Shown in pieces: positions 9,052 to 49,049 of a stretch of DNA of 53,282 nt. The notes below the pieces were generated by a model, which ran no database searches, had not been told where the DNA came from, and saw nothing but the letters and a program-made list of their open reading frames with translations. Position 1 is the stretch's first letter, and every line of letters begins with the position of its first letter. This stretch comes from Chelativorans sp. (GTDB lineage Bacteria; Pseudomonadota; Alphaproteobacteria; Rhizobiales; Rhizobiaceae), in contig NZ_JAPSLH010000029.1 of NCBI RefSeq assembly GCF_031180965.1, positions 1 to 53,282 of the forward strand. Reading direction: 5' to 3'. The translations under genes and the position numbers were made by a program.

Positions 9052-11625
9052 CTAAACGCGCTCGACGAAACCGTCGAGCACGCGCTTCTGTCCGGCCTTG
9101 TCGAAGTCGATCGTGAGCTTGTTGCCGTCTATCGCGGCGATATGGCCGTTGCCGAATTTCAGGTGGAACACCCGATCGCCCACTTTGAATTGCGAGGGCG
9201 TGTCAGATACGGACTTGGCCACCAGTTCGCCCTCGATGGTACGCCCTTTCACGGAGCCCCTCCCGGCGCCGTAGCCGGAATCCGGTTCGCCGTAACCGAT
9301 CCGCTCCACCTGGTGGCCCGAGCGCGTGCCCCAGTTGCGCGCCGTCGCCTCGGTGCGGTTTTTCTGCGCGCGCTGCCAGCCGGGCGTCGCATAAGTGTTG
9401 GAAAAGACCTCGCCGACCGTATCGAAGCGCGAGGCGCCATAGGGATTGGGCCGGCCCGGCTGCCGGTCGCCGAGCGGCCGGCCGTAACCGCCATAGGCGC
9501 TGCCGTCCTCCACCACCTCGACATGAGCTTCCGGCAATTCGTCGAGAAAGCGCGAGGGGAGGGTGGACTGCCACAGGCCATGGATGCGGCGGTTCGACGT
9601 AAACCATAGGTGCAGGTTCTTCTTCGCCCGCGTGAGGCCCACATAGGCGAGCCGGCGCTCCTCCTCCAGCCCCGAGCGCCCACCCTCGTCCAGCGACCGC
9701 TGGTGCGGAAAGAGGCCTTCCTCCCAGCCGGGCAGGAAGACCGTGTCGAATTCCAGGCCCTTTGCCGAATGCAGCGTCATGAGGCTGACGGCATCGAGCG
9801 GCTCGTCGCGCTCGGCATCCATCACCAGCGCCACATGCTCCAGGAAGGCGCGCAGACTCTCATACTCCTCCATGGAGCGGATGAGCTCCTTGAGATTCTC
9901 GAGCCGTCCCGGCGCCTCGGCCGAGCGGTCGTTCTTCCACATGTCGGTGTAGCCCGACTCCTCGAGGATGAGCTCGGCGAGTTCCGTATGCTTCATCCGG
10001 TCGAGGAGGCCTTGCCAGCGCTCGAAGCTTTCCACCAGGTTGCGCAGCGAGGCGCCGGGCTTCGGCTTCAACTCCTCCGTGCCGACGAGATCGCGGGCTG
10101 CCTGGAGGAGCGGCACGGCGCGCATGCGCGCCACGTCGTGGATCTGGCGCACGGCGGATTCGCCGAGGCCCCTCTTCGGCACGTTGACAATGCGCTCGAA
10201 GGCGAGGTCGTCGGCGCCTTGCGCCACCACCCGGAAATAGGCGAGCGCATCGCGGATCTCCTGCCGCTCGTAGAATCGCGGGCCGCCGATGACGCGATAG
10301 TTGAGCCCAAGGGTGACGAAGCGATCCTCGAACTCGCGCATCTGGAAGGATGCGCGCACCAGGATCGCCATGTCATTGAGCGCATGGCCCTTGGCCTGCA
10401 GCGCCTCGATCTCCTCGCCCACGGCGCGCGCCTCTTCCTCCGAATCCCAGGCGGCGTGCACCTTCACCTTCGGCGCGTCGGGATCGGCGTGGTCGGTGAA
10501 GAGCGTCTTGCCGAGCCGGCCCTCATTATGGGCTATGAGATGGGATGCGGCCCCGAGGATATGCGCGGTCGAGCGATAGTTGCGCTCCAGCCGGATCACC
10601 TTGGCGCCCGGAAAATCCTTCTCGAAGCGGAGGATGTTGTCCACTTCCGCGCCGCGCCAGCCATAGATGGACTGATCGTCGTCGCCGACGCAGCAGATGT
10701 TGACGGCGGCTCCACCCTCCGCCTCGTGGCGAGGGCCGGCGCTTCGCTTCGCGACTTCCCCCATCGAGGGGGAGGTGGGCTGGTTGCTGCCGGGACGCTG
10801 CGCCAGAAGCCGCAGCCACATATACTGCGCGGTGTTGGTGTCCTGATACTCGTCGACCAGGATGTATTTGAACTTGGCGTGATATTCCCGCAGCACATCC
10901 GGGTGCGCGCGGAAGATGCGGATCGGGTGCAGGAGCAGGTCGCCGAAATCCGTCGCGTTGAGCGTCTTCAGCCGCTCCTGATAGGCCGCATAGAGGGTGC
11001 GGCCCTTGCCGTTGGCGAAGGCGCGGGCGTCGCCCTCCGGGATGTCGGCGGGGCTGAGGCCCTTGTTCTTCCAGCCGTCGATCATCATGGCGAACTGCCG
11101 CGCCGGCCAGCGCTTGTCGTCCAGTCCCTCGGCTTGGATCAACTGCTTTATCAGCCGCACCTGGTCGTCCGTGTCGAGAATGGTGAAGGAGGAGGTGAGG
11201 CCGGCGAGCTCCGCATGGCGGCGCAGGAGTTTTACGCCGATCGAGTGGAACGTGCCGAGCCAGGGCATGCCTTCAATGGCTTCGCCCACCAGGACACCGA
11301 TGCGCGTCTTCATCTCGCGCGCGGCCTTGTTGGTGAAGGTGACAGCGAGGATTTGAGAGGGGAAGGCGCGGCCCGTGGCAAGGATATGGGCGATGCGCGT
11401 GGTGAGCACGCGCGTCTTGCCGGTCCCCGCGCCGGCGAGCACGAGCACCGGACCTTCGGTCGTTTCCACCGCGAGCCGCTGCTCCGGGTTCAGCCCTTCC
11501 AGATAGCGGGGTGCCTGGGCGTGCCGAGCGGCCATGGCGCGCGCGGCGATGCCGCCCGTGCGCGGCGCGGGGCGGGGCGCTTCGTCATCGCCGAAGAACG
11601 GCAGATCGTCCGGAGAACCTGGCAT
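9052..11625 (-). CDS. uvrD: ATP-dependent DNA helicase UvrD/PcrA type
   Basis: Superfamily 1A 3'-5' helicase of mismatch and nucleotide-excision repair. From ATG 11625 (MPGSPDDLPFF) it has 857 residues; the frame stays open upstream to 11769 but that part looks non-coding. Motifs in order: Q motif (LNPEQRLAVE), Walker A (AGAGTGKTRVL), Ia (AVTFTNKAAREMKTRI), II (LVDEYQDTN), III (CVGDDDQSIYGWRGA), IV (LERNYRST), V (SLMTLHSAKGLEFDTVFLPG) and VI (EEERRLAYVGLTRAK). The C terminus has the Tudor-like RNA-polymerase-binding end (VGDRVFHLKFGNGHIAAIDG). Between motifs II and III lies a ~27-residue insert that looks like translated genomic repeat. Confidence 0.96.
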   Translation of the reverse strand: MPGSPDDLPFFGDDEAPRPAPRTGGIAARAMAARHAQAPRYLEGLNPEQRLAVETTEGPVLVLAGAGTGKTRVLTTRIAHILATGRAFPSQILAVTFTNKAAREMKTRIGVLVGEAIEGMPWLGTFHSIGVKLLRRHAELAGLTSSFTILDTDDQVRLIKQLIQAEGLDDKRWPARQFAMMIDGWKNKGLSPADIPEGDARAFANGKGRTLYAAYQERLKTLNATDFGDLLLHPIRIFRAHPDVLREYHAKFKYILVDEYQDTNTAQYMWLRLLAQRPGSNQPTSPSMGEVAKRSAGPRHEAEGGAAVNICCVGDDDQSIYGWRGAEVDNILRFEKDFPGAKVIRLERNYRSTAHILGAASHLIAHNEGRLGKTLFTDHADPDAPKVKVHAAWDSEEEARAVGEEIEALQAKGHALNDMAILVRASFQMREFEDRFVTLGLNYRVIGGPRFYERQEIRDALAYFRVVAQGADDLAFERIVNVPKRGLGESAVRQIHDVARMRAVPLLQAARDLVGTEELKPKPGASLRNLVESFERWQGLLDRMKHTELAELILEESGYTDMWKNDRSAEAPGRLENLKELIRSMEEYESLRAFLEHVALVMDAERDEPLDAVSLMTLHSAKGLEFDTVFLPGWEEGLFPHQRSLDEGGRSGLEEERRLAYVGLTRAKKNLHLWFTSNRRIHGLWQSTLPSRFLDELPEAHVEVVEDGSAYGGYGRPLGDRQPGRPNPYGASRFDTVGEVFSNTYATPGWQRAQKNRTEATARNWGTRSGHQVERIGYGEPDSGYGAGRGSVKGRTIEGELVAKSVSDTPSQFKVGDRVFHLKFGNGHIAAIDGNKLTIDFDKAGQKRVLDGFVERV
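10709..10790 (-). repeat. Rhizobial-type palindromic repeat inserted in frame in uvrD
   Basis: Inside the helicase gene, just before motif III, the minus strand reads CACCTCCCCCTCGATGGGGG and continues through GAAGCGAAGC to GAGGCGGAGGGTGGA. This pattern matches, by recall, dispersed intergenic repeats in Mesorhizobium/Brucella-type genomes. It is translated as about 27 residues (around PTSPSMGEVAKRS and RHEAEGGAA) with no counterpart I know in UvrD relatives, where the text runs directly from LLAQRP to VNICCVGDDDQS. The frame is kept, so the protein is probably still functional. Confidence 0.65.
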
Positions 11626-21909: not shown

Positions 21910-22230
21910 AGTGGAGGCTTCTGTTGCCAGGTGCCTCCGGACCCCGCTCAGACCTGCGACGGCCTGAGGCTTGAATTGAAGCTATCGCGCTGCATTAAGC
22001 AGCGAGACGGGCTTCCGCATAGTTGTCGTTGGCAACTATAGGTTCGGTCCGATAACGGTGGTACCATACCGAGCGAAAGTCCGATCTTTACACCCTCGTC
22101 GATCCTATTTCGCCCCCATCAGAAGCCGCCCAATCGGCGGCTTGTGGTGGAGGCGCCGGGTACCGCCCCCGGGTCCGAATGGCTTATTCCATCGGCCGTT
22201 TATCGCCATAGTCGGCCGAAGCCGACAGCC
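21910..22230 (-). ncRNA. ssrA: Transfer-messenger RNA, circularly permuted two-piece form
   Basis: Rescues stalled ribosomes and tags the nascent chain for ClpXP. Reading the minus strand, the acceptor piece comes first and ends GCGCCTCCACCA (near 22144-22155), then an excised hairpin loop (AAGCCGCC/GGGCGGCTT), then the coding piece starting GGGGGCGAAATAGGATCGAC (near 22116). GGGGGCG pairs with CGCCTCC (one G-U) to form the acceptor stem, which proves the permuted order. The tag frame, entered after a GCC resume codon, reads ANDNYAEARLAA then TAA (around 22032-21997); the stop lies in a CGCTGC/GCAGCG hairpin. The 3' end is set at a GGAGGC...GCCTCC stem at 21913-21938. Outer boundaries are approximate. 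Confidence 0.93.
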
Positions 22231-22233
22231 ACC

Positions 22234-22262
22234 AATATAGGCAAGCGGCATGCGTATTGAAA
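22234..22262 (-). promoter_or_regulatory. Candidate ssrA promoter
   Basis: On the minus strand TTTCAA (22262-22257), a 17-base spacer, then TATATT (22239-22234). The -10 matches the sigma-70 consensus at five of six positions and places the start near 22227, just ahead of the acceptor piece. Confidence 0.5.
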
Positions 22263-22386
22263 GGGGATAGGCGGGGAGGCAGGGCTTTTTTCATTGACTT
22301 GGGAGAAGCTTTGCGCGGAAGTTCGCCCGGGGACTTTGCAGTTTGGCTATGCCGCTGGCGGGGGCGCAGCGGGAGAGGAAGAAACC

Positions 22387-32925: not shown

Positions 32926-32933
32926 CCGCGCCC

Positions 32934-32987
32934 ATGATGACCAGGATCATTCTCGTAGTAGGACGGCACATGGGCAGGGCGGCGTAG
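32934..32987 (+). CDS. ilvIH leader peptide
   Basis: 17-codon frame MMTRIILVVGRHMGRAA then TAG. The run Ile-Ile-Leu-Val-Val is exactly the set of amino acids made by the pathway, so ribosome stalling here reports branched-chain aminoacyl-tRNA supply. It is followed by a GGCGGC-GTA-GCCGCC hairpin over its stop codon and a terminator at 33022, the classical attenuation layout. Confidence 0.85.
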   Translation: MMTRIILVVGRHMGRAA

Positions 32988-33021
32988 CCGCCGGGCGATA
33001 GCCACTCATGTGCGAAAGACA

Positions 33022-33043
33022 GGCTCCCTCGGGGGCCTTTTTT
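33022..33043 (+). terminator. ilvIH attenuator terminator
   Basis: GGCTCCC-TC-GGGGGCC stem (one G-U pair) followed by TTTTTT, located between the leader peptide and ilvI. Premature termination here when charged Ile/Leu/Val tRNAs are plentiful is inferred from the layout. Confidence 0.85.
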
Positions 33044-33079
33044 ATTGGCCGAAAAATCGATCAGCACGGGACAAGAGCG

Positions 33080-43847: not shown

Positions 43848-44180
43848 TCAGTCGCCGCCGTGCTTGACCGGATCGGGGCGTGTCAGACCGCTCAGGACCG
43901 TGCGCGGACCCTCGCGGGGAAAGGCGCCGCTGTCGTCCTCCGCCACCCGGTAAAGCCTCTGGTCCCGGAAAGCACTGGCGAAACTCGTCGACACGCCTTC
44001 GGCTGGCTTTGCAGGCGTGTCGAGGAAGTCGACTTCCGCTTCGGCGGCGACGATTCTGGCGTCAGCCGCCGAACGAGCGCGCACCACCACCTCACCGGCT
44101 GGCTTGGCCAGGTCCCAGTTGCGATCGTCTTCCCCCGCGTCGGGTATGAGTCGATAAATCCTGAGTTCCTCGTGAGCCAT
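43848..44180 (-). CDS. Hypothetical protein with a candidate EcfG-type promoter
   Basis: 110 residues, MAHEELRIYRLIPDAGEDDR onward, with RNWDLAKPAGEVVVRARSAA and a Pro/Arg-rich C-terminal part. No signal peptide, membrane segment or known family. The ATG at 44180 has GGAGG seven bases upstream. Further upstream GGAAC-N16-TGTT (44233-44209) fits the EcfG pattern, so it is probably a small general-stress gene of rhizobia. The start region of the candidate sRNA lies divergently ~140 bases away. Confidence 0.72.
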   Translation of the reverse strand: MAHEELRIYRLIPDAGEDDRNWDLAKPAGEVVVRARSAADARIVAAEAEVDFLDTPAKPAEGVSTSFASAFRDQRLYRVAEDDSGAFPREGPRTVLSGLTRPDPVKHGGD

Positions 44181-44285: not shown

Positions 44286-44310
44286 GGAACTTTCGGGTGT
44301 GCCGGGCATT
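44286..44310 (+). promoter_or_regulatory. EcfG-like promoter for candidate small RNA
   Basis: GGAAC (44286-44290), 16-base spacer, CATT (44307-44310). One mismatch to CGTT. Predicted start about 44316-44320, exactly where the RNA stem begins. Confidence 0.5.
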
Positions 44311-44317
44311 TGGCTAT

Positions 44318-44395
44318 CGACGACACGCACTCCCCCCGCCCCCCAACCCCACAATTGCGTGTCGTTTGCCGGCGTTAAGCGCCGGCATTTTTTTT
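44318..44395 (+). ncRNA. Candidate trans-acting small RNA with C-rich loop
   Basis: No protein is encoded here, yet the plus strand has a full transcription unit: an EcfG-like promoter at 44286, a perfect stem CGACACGCA (44321-44329) / TGCGTGTCG (44356-44364) holding a 26-base loop rich in C (with runs CCCCCC, CCCCCC and CCCC), then a perfect terminator TGCCGGCG-TTAAG-CGCCGGCA followed by eight T. C-rich single-stranded loops that pair with Shine-Dalgarno sequences are the known active part of several alphaproteobacterial sRNAs. Ends are estimates. No name assigned. Confidence 0.62.
44367..44395 (+). terminator. Strong Rho-independent terminator of the candidate sRNA
   Basis: 8-bp perfect stem TGCCGGCG/CGCCGGCA, loop TTAAG, then TTTTTTTT (44388-44395). 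It is oriented plus; the neighbouring protein genes are minus-strand, so it can only serve a plus-strand RNA. Confidence 0.85.
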
Positions 44396-44438: not shown

Positions 44439-47400
44439 TCAGTAATCCCGCTCGTAGAAGATGCCGAGATCGGATTCGCCGCCCGTGCCGACGGAACCCC
44501 GCACCCGCAGATTATCGGTCACGTCCAGATTGATGGTGCCGCGCGTCGTGCCGCCCGCGCCCGCCTCCACGCCAAGATAGACGTTTTCCTGGATGTAGCG
44601 ACCGGCGCGCACTGCGGCGTTGCCTTCCTCGTCAGTCACGATATCGAGCTCGTCCAGGCCCGTGGCTTCCCGTATCCCGCCCAGGAGCGACATGTTGGAA
44701 CCGCCGGCCAGCTCGGCCGCGGCAGCCGCCAGCTGGGCGAGCTGGAAAGGCGAGAGCTGGTCCACGCCGCGATCGAAAATGAGCCGGGAAAGAACCTCAT
44801 CCTGGGGGAGCTCAGGATCCGACGAGAAGGTGATCGCCGGGTCCGACACCCGTCCCCGCACCGTTATGAACACAGTGATATCGCGGCCGGGAGAGCGGGC
44901 GATGAAGTCAAGGAACGGGTCAAGGTCGCCGACAAGCGTCACCGTGCCCTCCTCGAAGGTGATGCGGCGACCGAGAATGGCAAGCCGGCCGCGCACCAGC
45001 CGGAAGCCGCCCACCGGCTCGACGGCGCTTACCGGTCCGGTCAGGCGAACGGAACCGCCGAGCTCCGCGTCGAGGCCGCGGCCGCGCACGAAGATACGGG
45101 CCGGAGCGTTGATGTTCACGTCAAGCCGCATGACGCTCGGCCGCTGGCTTGGCATGGGCGTGCCGTCATTCGCGCGGGCGCGCGCCAGCGTTTGAACCAC
45201 TGCGCGCGGCGGGTCGACATGCCGCACGTCGAGCTGCGCCGCCGACCCCCCGAAATTCTCCGGCACCAGGATCTCAGCACGGCTGACTTCGAGGTTGCCC
45301 GAAAGGAGGGGATCGCGGGTGAGGGGGCCGGAAAGACGCAGGGCGCCGCTCAAGGTGGCGGTCAGGAGCTCCCCATCCGCATAGCGCGCTTCGTCGAGGC
45401 GCAGCGCCAAATCCGCCGGAAATCCCGCGGCAGCGCTTGTGGAGATCGTGCCGGAGGCGGAGAGCGAGCCGCCGGCCGCCAGGCTGGCCGCGCCCGAGCG
45501 GATGGTCACAGTGTCCCCGGAAATCCCGCCATTGATAGCGATGCCGGTCAGCCGCAGGTTCGATGCGGGATCGACGGCGGTGGCACCGGCCGTCGAGAAT
45601 GTCCCGGATATGGCCGGGCTGGCGAGGCTCCCGCCTATGGTGAGATCCGCAGTCGCCGTGCCGGAAAATTGTGTGCCGCGTTCGGCGAGGAAGCGGTTTG
45701 CCAGCGACAGAGGCGCGCTGCCGCGCACCTGGACGGCCAATCCGCTTCCCGCCAGCGGCACCCGGCCGCTCGCCGCGATGGACAGACCGGAGGGGCCGGT
45801 TGCGTTGAGCGAGCGGAGGGTGAGGCTGCGGCCCGCATAGTCCCCGGATGCGCTGACGCTGAGCGGCGCAATGCCGAAGGAGGCGAGGGGACGCGCGGTA
45901 AGGCCTGCCACCTGCGCGGTGAAGGTCGCATTCGGGTTGGCAAGGCTGCCAGTCACGCGCGCCGAGCCCGTCAGCGTGCCGCCGAGGTCCTGGCCGGGTA
46001 TGCGCGCGTTGAGCAGCGACAGCGGGAAAGAGCGCAGGCCGACGTCGAGCGCCATCCGGCCCTGGCCGAGGGGGACATCGCCCGAAACGGTCGCATTGAG
46101 GCCGTTCGGGCTGGTCATGCTGGCATTGAGGCCGAGCATCTGGCCGCGGGTGGTCCCGCTCGCCTCGACGCCAAGCGAAGGGATACCCGCCTGGCGAAGT
46201 GCCGCCGCCGCGATCCCGCGCCCGGTCACCCGGAAGGAGGCCTGCGGCGCCTCGCGGGTGCCGGAGATAGTCGCCTGGCCATCCAGAGTGCCGGCGAGCG
46301 CCAGGTCGGGGCGGATGGCGTTGACGATGGAAAGCGGCACGCGCTCCAGCCCAAGCGCCACGTTCAGCGCCTGGCCGATCTCGCCTTGCGCTGTCACGCG
46401 CCCGCCGGCGACGTCAAGCTGCACGGGCTCGAAGCGGACCGTCTCGCCGCGCACGGTGAGGCTTGCCGGGCGAAGGAGGCGCGCGGAGACGCCGGCCTGA
46501 TCGAGCGCGGCTTCCTGGAGCGTCACGACATAGCCGCCATCCTGCGGCGCCAGCCCGCCGCGCGCGGAGACATTGGTGCCGTTTGCAAGCCTGGCTCCGG
46601 CGGAAAACTCGGTCGCACTCCCGTTCGTCTGCGCGTTGGCGCTGAGTGTCGCCACATCGATCCCTGCCGCCCCGAGATTGGCGGCCTCAAGGGTCCCCTG
46701 GACGGCGGGCACGCCGAAAAGATCGGAGACGGTCGCCTGGACTTCGCCGGTGCCCAACGAGAGCTGCTCGGTGGCGAGGTTTCGCATCGTGGCGTTTACG
46801 GCGGCATGCTGCCCGCCCTCGCGCGGCTCCAGCGCGAGCTCGGCATTGATCGCACCCTCGGCTTGCACGAGGAACAGTGCGGCGGCAGTCGAGATGTCGG
46901 AAGCATCAAGGGCGACCTCGCCGGCAAGTAATCCCTGCCCGTCCTGGGCGATGTCTCCCGTCAATCGAGCGCCTTGCGTCGTGAACTCGATGCCCCTCAG
47001 CCTCCTCTCGTCCTCCGCCAGGGTGAGGTCGGTGGCAAGGCTCGCACGCGTTCCGTCGAGGAATCCTTCGCCGGTCACCCGCCCGGCGAGCACCTCATCC
47101 TGCAGCGTGCCTTCAAAGCCGATGCGGGCTTGCGTGAGCTGTTTTTCCAGGACGCGCCCGCGCGGCACCTCGGCAACGAAGGAAAGGCTGAGATCACCGG
47201 CAGTGCCTGAGGCGCGGCCGCTCGCCGTCAGCCGGCCCTGGGCGCGGTCTGTTATGAGCCCCAGGTCATCAAGCACCGTGTCGAAGCGGAAATCGGCCGC
47301 TTCGCTGGAGAAAGTGCCATCGGCGGTGAATTCCATCTGCTCGCTGGCGATACGGAAATTGTCAGCTGAAAAGCCTTCTTCGCCGCGCGCAAGGCGACCG

Positions 47401-49049
47401 GAAAGCCGCGTTGCGCCGGCAAGCAGCGGGTCAAGGGCGGCCATGCCTATCCGAAGCTCCTCGGCCGTGCCGTCCAGCGTCAGGTCGAAGGCGCCGCTGA
47501 TGGGCCGGACCTCACCATTGGCCTGCAGGTCCACGCTGCCGCCCAGATCCCGGTTCGCAAGGGCTGAGAAAGGCGCGATGCTGGCGGCCCTCAGGCCGAG
47601 ATCCCCGCGGAAAGCATAGTCGAGGACAGTGCCCGAAAGCGTGGCGGCAAGGTGGCTGCCGGCAAGTTCCGCCCGGTTCAGGGAGAGCGGCTCGCCGGCG
47701 CGCCATGCGCCGTCCGCGCTGAACCGGATCGTCTCGCCCAGTGCTTCCGCGATCTCGGCGCGCGCAGCGGTGATGCCGGACAGCGCGCCCTCGCCGCTGA
47801 AGGTGATTCGGCGCTGGTCCGGCACTGCGAGATCCGCAGCTATGCCATCGAAGGCGAGCGTCATGGCATCGGCGGCGACGGTACCGGTCTGCAGGTTGCG
47901 CACATCTAGCGAGGCGGTCCAGTTGTCGCCGCCCGCCTCGCCAAACCGGGCGGTAAGCCCGGCCGTTCGCACCGAGGTTTCGCCGCCCCCGGGAAGCAGG
48001 ACCTGCTGTCCCGTGGGATCCGCTATATTGGCGTCGAGCGAAAGCGAATTCAAAAAGCCGTCGGCCGCCGTCTCGGCGCTTGCCTGAAGCCTCAGCGCGG
48101 CGCTCGTCAGGTCCAAGGTTTCGAGCCGCAGCCCGCCGCCGGTCTTTGCCACGCCGGCGGCCTGGAGGGTGGTCTCGGCGCCGAAGAAGGGGCGGTACCG
48201 CGCGGGGATCAGCCGGGCGATCGGGCCACCGACATTGGCGGTGAAGCCCAGGCCTTCCGGCTGCTGGCGGAACCGGGCGGTGCCTGAAAGCGCCGGTTCG
48301 CCGGCCGCCGCCAATGTCAGCGCGAGGTCGAGATTTTCCACCGGGCCGGAGCCAGCCAGCGTCAAGGCCAAAGGGGGGCGGCCTTCGATGTTGAGCAGAT
48401 TGGCCACGACGCCGTCCTGCGGCTCTGTGAGGGCGAAATCGAGATCGAGCCGGTCCGCGGCGTTGTCGTAGACTGCCTCGAGCGATAGTTCGCCGCCCGG
48501 TCCGTCCAGTCGGACGATCTGCAGGGCGGTATCGAGCGAGCCGCCCTCCAGCCGCAGTCGGCCCTCGACGGAAAGATTCGCCTGCAGGCCGAACACGTCC
48601 TCGCCGAAGGAAACGGAGGGAACCTCGAGCCGCCCCAGATTCATCGCGAGAGGCAATTCCGGCACGGCAAAGGACCGGGCTTCCGGTGAGGGCAGGGCAC
48701 CTTCCGGCGGCAACGGCCGGCGGAGCACCTCGATGGAGTCAGCCGCCAGGCGCGAGATTTCCAGCCGCCTTTGCAGGAGCAGCGTCGAGCGACTCCAGTC
48801 GATGGTTGCACCCGTGATGCGCAGCCAGACGCCCGCGCGGTCGGCAACCGTGATCTCGGTGATGGCGGCTTCGGAGGAGAGCACCCCCTGGATGCCGTTG
48901 ATGCGGATCTGCCGGTTGGGCGTGGAGAGCCGGTTCTCGATGAAGGAAATGAAGACCGAGCGCTCCTCTTCCGGAGTTTCCGGCGTCGGATCCTGGGCAA
49001 GGGCCGGGCCGGCCGACAGGAAGAGAAGGAGAGCGAGCAGGAAACGCAT
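44439..49049 (-). CDS. tamB: TamB, inner-membrane component of the TAM complex
   Basis: 1,536-residue AsmA/TamB-superfamily protein that spans the periplasm with TamA and helps insert outer-membrane proteins or move lipid. N-terminal signal/anchor MRFLLALLLFLSAGPALA, then NRQIRINGIQGVLSSEAAIT and a very long repetitive beta-rich body. The C-terminal TamB (DUF490) domain is clear: LRLTGIAINGGISGDTVTIR, GGFRLVRGRLAILGRRITFE, DEVLSRLIFDRGVDQLSPFQ, and the beta-barrel-like end DNLRVRGSVGTGGESDLGIF finishing YERDY. Its ATG follows tamA by 10 bases; the tamA stop TAG overlaps the tamB ribosome site AGGAG. Confidence 0.95.
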   Translation of the reverse strand: MRFLLALLLFLSAGPALAQDPTPETPEEERSVFISFIENRLSTPNRQIRINGIQGVLSSEAAITEITVADRAGVWLRITGATIDWSRSTLLLQRRLEISRLAADSIEVLRRPLPPEGALPSPEARSFAVPELPLAMNLGRLEVPSVSFGEDVFGLQANLSVEGRLRLEGGSLDTALQIVRLDGPGGELSLEAVYDNAADRLDLDFALTEPQDGVVANLLNIEGRPPLALTLAGSGPVENLDLALTLAAAGEPALSGTARFRQQPEGLGFTANVGGPIARLIPARYRPFFGAETTLQAAGVAKTGGGLRLETLDLTSAALRLQASAETAADGFLNSLSLDANIADPTGQQVLLPGGGETSVRTAGLTARFGEAGGDNWTASLDVRNLQTGTVAADAMTLAFDGIAADLAVPDQRRITFSGEGALSGITAARAEIAEALGETIRFSADGAWRAGEPLSLNRAELAGSHLAATLSGTVLDYAFRGDLGLRAASIAPFSALANRDLGGSVDLQANGEVRPISGAFDLTLDGTAEELRIGMAALDPLLAGATRLSGRLARGEEGFSADNFRIASEQMEFTADGTFSSEAADFRFDTVLDDLGLITDRAQGRLTASGRASGTAGDLSLSFVAEVPRGRVLEKQLTQARIGFEGTLQDEVLAGRVTGEGFLDGTRASLATDLTLAEDERRLRGIEFTTQGARLTGDIAQDGQGLLAGEVALDASDISTAAALFLVQAEGAINAELALEPREGGQHAAVNATMRNLATEQLSLGTGEVQATVSDLFGVPAVQGTLEAANLGAAGIDVATLSANAQTNGSATEFSAGARLANGTNVSARGGLAPQDGGYVVTLQEAALDQAGVSARLLRPASLTVRGETVRFEPVQLDVAGGRVTAQGEIGQALNVALGLERVPLSIVNAIRPDLALAGTLDGQATISGTREAPQASFRVTGRGIAAAALRQAGIPSLGVEASGTTRGQMLGLNASMTSPNGLNATVSGDVPLGQGRMALDVGLRSFPLSLLNARIPGQDLGGTLTGSARVTGSLANPNATFTAQVAGLTARPLASFGIAPLSVSASGDYAGRSLTLRSLNATGPSGLSIAASGRVPLAGSGLAVQVRGSAPLSLANRFLAERGTQFSGTATADLTIGGSLASPAISGTFSTAGATAVDPASNLRLTGIAINGGISGDTVTIRSGAASLAAGGSLSASGTISTSAAAGFPADLALRLDEARYADGELLTATLSGALRLSGPLTRDPLLSGNLEVSRAEILVPENFGGSAAQLDVRHVDPPRAVVQTLARARANDGTPMPSQRPSVMRLDVNINAPARIFVRGRGLDAELGGSVRLTGPVSAVEPVGGFRLVRGRLAILGRRITFEEGTVTLVGDLDPFLDFIARSPGRDITVFITVRGRVSDPAITFSSDPELPQDEVLSRLIFDRGVDQLSPFQLAQLAAAAAELAGGSNMSLLGGIREATGLDELDIVTDEEGNAAVRAGRYIQENVYLGVEAGAGGTTRGTINLDVTDNLRVRGSVGTGGESDLGIFYERDY

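Follow-up and report, generated by a model that had tools for sequence, protein, structure and literature searches.

Among the small RNAs (sRNAs) of the alphaproteobacterial general stress response, the best worked-out one that we found is GsrN of Caulobacter crescentus. PMC5869019 describes it as a SigT-dependent RNA whose 5' loop contains six C and whose partners are G-rich mRNAs, katG being the proven target; it is processed to a stable 5' form, and it has a second exposed region. According to the same source, GsrN genes usually lie near ecfG-nepR-phyR, but not in C. crescentus, BLASTn matches to GsrN were obtained only in Caulobacteraceae, and homologues beyond this family were sought mainly adjoining ecfG-phyR. 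In Rhizobium etli ReC64 is described as an EcfG1-dependent RNA of 88 nt which adjoins phyR-tcrY (PMC3892343, PMC2881028). For S. meliloti, seven sRNAs have been reported as RpoE2-activated, and a GGAAC-N16-CATT promoter responsive to RpoE2, that of rpoE5, is listed (PMC6180224).

In this study we have focused on a predicted sRNA on the plus strand of a Chelativorans sp. contig (NZ_JAPSLH010000029.1); the whole stretch of 53,282 nt that was analysed is called the window, and the predicted RNA the window RNA. It resembles GsrN in its likely EcfG-family control, judged here by the promoter sequence, and in an exposed 5' C-rich loop with a six-C run. The G-rich partners of GsrN are reported ones, whereas those of the window RNA are predicted from its loop, and katG, the target of GsrN, has no match in the genome of the window. 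ReC64 and the predicted Rhizobiaceae homologues of GsrN are likewise EcfG-controlled, of similar size and predicted to have a C-rich 5' loop, but their place is the phyR-ecfG locus while the window RNA stands at tamB, the comparison being one of published descriptions (PMC3892343 and PMC5869019). By its anatomy the window RNA may work like GsrN; since the likeness is anatomical and the katG feature was not found, we did not file it as GsrN. The window RNA and its relatives present a GsrN-like design at different loci, and the genome of the window combines it with the lack of a katG match, therefore a post-transcriptional arm of the stress response may be more general. Conserved and without a name in Rfam, the window RNA appears to be under the control of the general stress sigma factor.

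The explanation that we favour, with a probability of roughly 0.65, is that the window RNA is a single-copy, trans-acting sRNA gene of the general stress response, made by EcfG, and that its C-rich loop pairs with G-runs. Under stress, PhyR would free the sigma factor EcfG from the anti-sigma factor NepR, and EcfG would read the GGAAC-N16-CATT promoter to give an RNA of about 79 nt. In this RNA the 5' hairpin would hold the 26-nt loop open, and the terminator would provide a U8 tail, a kind that Hfq can bind. Several mRNAs might then pair with the loop through G-runs such as GGGGGG or GUUGGGGGG, with a change in how they are translated or how stable they are, as is the case for GsrN in Caulobacter. 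The promoter sequence suggests the EcfG control, while the anatomy, read together with the GsrN literature, points to Hfq binding and to G-run targets. Three observations stand against this explanation: the -10 element is CATT, which is rarer than the CGTT type, katG is unmatched in the same genome, and the tamB locus of another Chelativorans record (see below) has no match to the RNA.

The features of the locus are collected in Table 1, where the 5' end of the RNA follows from the promoter spacing and the 3' end from the T run.

Table 1. Features of the window RNA locus, with coordinates in the window and the evidence for each
Feature	Coordinates	Strand	Evidence
EcfG-type promoter, GGAAC-N16-CATT	44286..44310	+	GGAAC in 17/17 relatives; among the 20 sites of this type found in the genome
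Predicted small RNA, about 79 nt	44317..44395	+	fold z -6.49; identity 79.6%; covariance model R1
5' hairpin, 10-bp stem	44320..44365	+	compensatory changes in 3/10 pairs; 98.2% of cells paired
26-nt C-rich loop, proposed G-run seed	44330..44355	+	81.7% mean identity; duplex energies
Intrinsic terminator, 9-bp stem and T8	44367..44395	+	aligned in 17/17 relatives
tamB, convergent neighbour	44439..49049	-	PF04357, E 6.6e-58; tamB end in the loci of 17/17 relatives
110-aa gene, family not assigned (no Pfam family matched), divergent neighbour	43848..44180	-	seen in 15/17 loci

Sequence inspection divides the promoter into GGAAC (44286-44290), 16 nt and CATT (44307-44310), and nine nt separate CATT from the stem. 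The 5' end would fall at about 44317, two to three nt ahead of the stem, because this is the spacing in the S. meliloti rpoE5 promoter of the same form (PMC6180224, the lower-case letter printed there being taken as the start site). An earlier note on this DNA had claimed a promoter, a stem with its loop, and a terminator; all of these were found in their place, and the relatives keep every element. The stem is perfect as claimed, however it is longer than the nine base pairs given: its arms ACGACACGCA and TGCGTGTCGT (44320-44329 and 44356-44365) form 10 perfect pairs and an outer G-U. The C-rich loop of 26 bases was described correctly; its sequence is CTCCCCCCGCCCCCCAACCCCACAAT, with 18 C (69%) and two runs of six C. 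The same applies to the perfect terminator, in which nine pairs (44367-44387) are followed by T8 (44388-44395). The segment 44317-44395 folds with -32.7 kcal/mol, none of 200 shuffles being as good, and this fold, like the promoter counts given below, exceeds chance. The RNA is a single copy in its genome: the next-best match of R1, the covariance model of the window RNA lineage built without the promoter, had an E of 0.069, which is no convincing candidate for a second copy. The statement that no named RNA is known at this site held as well, since none of the Rfam 15 families scored above its gathering threshold at 44286-44395 (best sub-threshold E 0.024). Nine Rfam matches at a permissive threshold were all at chance level and were rejected. 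Furthermore, no published account of the window RNA was found among the matches listed, a search of titles and abstract starts with most subscription journals outside its scope.

BLASTN in 101 genomes gave a match in 19, the genome of the window included. Seventeen of them comprise every genome available for the genus Chelativorans/Nitratireductor, 16 in number, and G050 from another genus; the match in the last two (G038, G055) covers only 24-26 nt of the 3' part of the RNA. The end of tamB is convergent with the RNA in all 17 loci, less than 130 nt away in 15; in L043 and L049 the distance is about 1.0 kb. Compared with the identities of the RNA and its loop in Table 1, which are mean pairwise values of the 17 relatives, the flanks are poorly kept, with 28.3% in the 120 nt upstream and 29.4% in the 80 nt downstream. 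Upstream of the RNA, GGAAC is accompanied in every relative by [AG]TT at -10, in the form CATT in six and CGTT in five. In the alignment of these 17 rows 97.9% of the pair cells hold standard pairs, and five pairs are changed on both sides against 1.0 expected by shuffling (0/500 shuffles as high), covariation counts that kinship among the sequences may inflate. When the partners were slid as a control, pairing fell to at most 46.9%.

The direction of the gene can also be read from these rows: on the minus strand the G-U cells of the 5' stem (six) and of the terminator (one) would become A-C, thus selection acts on the plus strand. The loops of L044 and L048 have gained or lost single C residues, which speaks against a coded peptide. 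The earlier note had named absence of compensatory changes and of a conserved promoter as evidence against its claim; both were looked for, and both the changes and the promoter are present. From the sequence comparison it is very likely that the window RNA is a real RNA gene, and reading it as a stand-alone plus-strand sRNA of the EcfG type, with promoter, stem, loop and terminator conserved, is well supported.

Among named records R1 matches the RNA in 9 of 36 tamB loci; no RNA was matched in the other 27, including most records of Mesorhizobium, Aquamicrobium, Pseudaminobacter and Devosia, and L035 stops inside tamB. Also among the 27 is the record of Chelativorans sp. ZYF759 (L020), where R1 has no match in the 6.7-kb tamB locus. 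In the relative L045 the tamB stop is directly followed by a run of 17 C, within the same downstream gap.

In the genome of the window the pattern GGAACYTT-N13-15-RTT occurs at 20 sites, and its reversed form, taken as a control, at 2. Among the 20 is an outward-facing pair beside nepR (PF18557), the neighbours of which, phyR and ecfG, were identified by eye. A simple terminator scan of our own behind the 20 sites showed that an intrinsic terminator follows, at a distance of up to 260 nt, at the site of the window RNA alone; since the pattern is narrower than the whole range of EcfG promoters, other EcfG RNAs may have escaped it. The nepR gene is on contig C21 and the window RNA on contig C47, so that the proximity to ecfG-nepR-phyR typical of GsrN was not found here.

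RNAs of the anti-Shine-Dalgarno 'cuckoo' type reportedly carry CCUCC-type loops. One loop of this kind is TTCCTCCTAA, that of BbsR14 (PMC7717549). The window RNA shares with them the C-rich loop of an alphaproteobacterial sRNA, and the earlier note had proposed for it the same action on GGAGG leaders. This proposal was not supported: in contrast to theirs, the loop lacks CCUCC, as does the whole window RNA, and its computed duplexes with AGGAGG and GGAGGA leaders (-6.2 and -6.7 kcal/mol) are weaker than that of a true anti-Shine-Dalgarno piece with AGGAGG (-10.3 kcal/mol). The duplex with a G6 leader reaches -16.7 kcal/mol, and that with GUUGGGGGG, which Table 1 of PMC5869019 lists as the interacting segment of a transcript bound by GsrN, reaches -19.9 kcal/mol. 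CCTCC does occur in the loops of some distant relatives (genus g92), nevertheless a true anti-Shine-Dalgarno seed which blocks many GGAGG-led mRNAs is quite improbable for the window RNA. Since its loop is without CCUCC, pairs weakly with AGGAGG and strongly with G6 and GUUGGGGGG, pairing with G-runs is held to be the most likely function of the loop, on the computed duplexes and the analogy with GsrN. The main alternative is that the RNA is real, but its loop is no mRNA seed and instead, as a decoy, captures a protein with affinity for C-rich single strands. Rho, which prefers C-rich RNA, would be the obvious candidate. The loop is indeed long, open and mostly C, and its relatives share C-runs rather than one fixed sequence; on the other hand, its identity in the genus (Table 1) is above what the C content alone needs, and the precedent of GsrN, as far as PMC5869019 describes it, favours base pairing, so we regard the decoy as unlikely.

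Two further alternatives concern the origin of the transcript. The sRNA may be real but read by a different sigma factor, such as another ECF factor, or be constitutive. Its CATT at -10 would allow this, and in S. meliloti the targets of RpoE6 are reported to overlap with the RpoE2 regulon (PMC6180224); however, the CGTT of five relatives and the recurrence of the motif at both outward-facing promoters beside nepR in the same genome make this rather improbable. It is very improbable that there is no independent gene, only a conserved hairpin and terminator which end tamB or shield the converging transcripts. Although the element sits in a convergent gap just past the tamB stop and has tamB beside it at 17 of 17 loci, only the plus strand accounts for the T run and the G-U pairs, the conserved GGAAC stands at a constant distance, and relatives of the second lineage described below (L071-L074, L076) keep the design without tamB nearby.

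As the proven target of GsrN, katG deserves separate consideration. No match to katG (TIGR00198) was found in the genome of the window (G000, 95% complete), while the gene is present in 6 of the 16 genus genomes. In the 260 nt upstream of these six genes there is one GGGG, at -234, and no other run of four G. As a target of the window RNA, katG has therefore no support, having no match in the same genome and no nearby upstream G-runs in the genus.

Beyond the genus, R1 was run on 297 genomes of the family and gave 11 matches outside its training set at E<=7.8e-4. GGAAC stands 31-39 nt upstream of the match in 10 of them and is absent in L075; since R1 was built without the promoter, this is an independent check on the matches. 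At E 0.0009-0.01 the matches are mostly chance terminators, GGAAC being at that distance in 0 of 29 inspected loci (L089 and L104 were not placed in this check, and 22 weak rows without a locus fall outside it); consequently, the R1 tally of 49/297 does not mean 49 homologues. One of these 22 rows, that of G279 (E 0.004), is nevertheless a genuine RNA of the second lineage. Four further relatives at tamB (L065, L067-L069) carry the window RNA lineage into the genera g90 and g41, with tamB about 1.3 kb from the RNA in L065.

The second lineage has the same type of promoter as the window RNA, a 5' stem with a C-run loop and a GCCGG-type terminator, but it differs in the stem itself (GACGGGC/GCCCGTC), in a linker ahead of the terminator and in its loci. 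In its nine rows 99.3% of the cells pair, and three pairs are changed on both sides against 1.2 expected; 15 of 500 shuffles were as high, a weaker covariation than in the first lineage. R2, a covariance model of this lineage which includes the promoter and contains no member of the window RNA lineage, gave matches at E<=0.001 in 73 of 394 family genomes and 30 of 109 genera, counts which include the window RNA lineage and the weakest of which may be chance. Its match to the window RNA has an E of 7.1e-6, is 110 nt long and covers exactly 44286-44395. Promoter and terminator carry part of this score, and common descent of the two lineages is not proven by it. Among the matches listed 30 R2 loci were inspected, with GGAAC in 29 and GCAAC in one, which is not independent evidence because R2 contains the promoter. 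Rfam gave tRNAs only on 19 loci of both lineages.

The addresses of the second lineage are varied. In genomes of g115 (L070, L258) the RNA is divergent from tamA, named by eye, and is thus found at the opposite end of tamAB; the loop piece CCCCGCCCCCAACCCCA of L070 is nearly identical to that of the window RNA. Other loci, L071-L074 and L076 for example, have no tamB nearby, and in all seven genomes compared (G141, G219, G641, G122, G205, G271, G248) nepR and the best second-lineage RNA are either on different contigs or separated by megabases. The shared seed CCC-AA(A)-CCC predominates in 6 of 15 genera, where shuffling would give 0.26; this is no more than suggestive, as there are close relatives among these genera and several lineages are without the seed. 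A loose pattern of promoter, C-run and GCCGG in 394 genomes was discarded as evidence, being no better than its reversed control, although a few RNAs of the second lineage were first recognized among the matches listed for it. In five genomes (G141, G219, G162, G232, G341) there are two or three R2 matches each, and the RNA class may have duplicated.

Our reading of these comparisons, tentative and held at somewhat less than even odds, is that the window RNA is a member of a single class of RNAs of the general stress response, undescribed but widespread in the family and perhaps in the order, with an EcfG promoter, a stem, a poly-C loop and a terminator, in which the promoter and the C-run seed would be constant while the stem and the address would be exchanged. 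The addresses would be the end of tamB, the start of tamA, other loci and the nepR locus, and the class would be the counterpart of GsrN in genomes without such an RNA at the nepR locus. At nepR loci themselves, two genomes of the genus g30 (L223, L224) have RNAs on the minus strand, at about 10380-10530, which are preceded by an EcfG-type promoter and not matched by R2 up to E 1. Their loop piece CGCCCCCAACCCA resembles CGCCCCCCAACCCCA of the window RNA. In g88, an EcfG-type promoter followed by a C-loop RNA was recognized near nepR (L227, 5538-5640; R2 E 0.004). The g30 and g88 RNAs may be the Rhizobiaceae homologues predicted in PMC5869019. In five genomes (G000, the genome of the window, and G002, G011, G012 and G035) a scan to about 10 kb from nepR detected no RNA with GGAAC and a terminator; the scan is imperfect, having reported none in L227 either. 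A C-rich scan of 35 nepR loci returned four weak candidates, which were read as coding or chance, and on five of the scanned neighbourhoods R2 gave only E 0.61, in L145.

Outside the family R1 found nothing convincing, and R2 had matches at E<=0.001 in 14 of 397 genomes, 12 of which were inspected. Among these loci (L276-L287), chiefly in f31 (L277, L278, L280, L281) and f34 (L276, L287), there are R2 stretches led by GGAAC and ended by a terminator; several have GTT at -10 and weaker C-rich loops.

Two named RNAs were also recognized elsewhere in the window by Rfam: the Atu_C8 sRNA (RF02502) at 32933-33054 on the plus strand, in full length with 111.6 bits, and the alphaproteobacterial two-piece tmRNA (RF01849) at 21910-22266 on the minus strand, with 306.6 bits.
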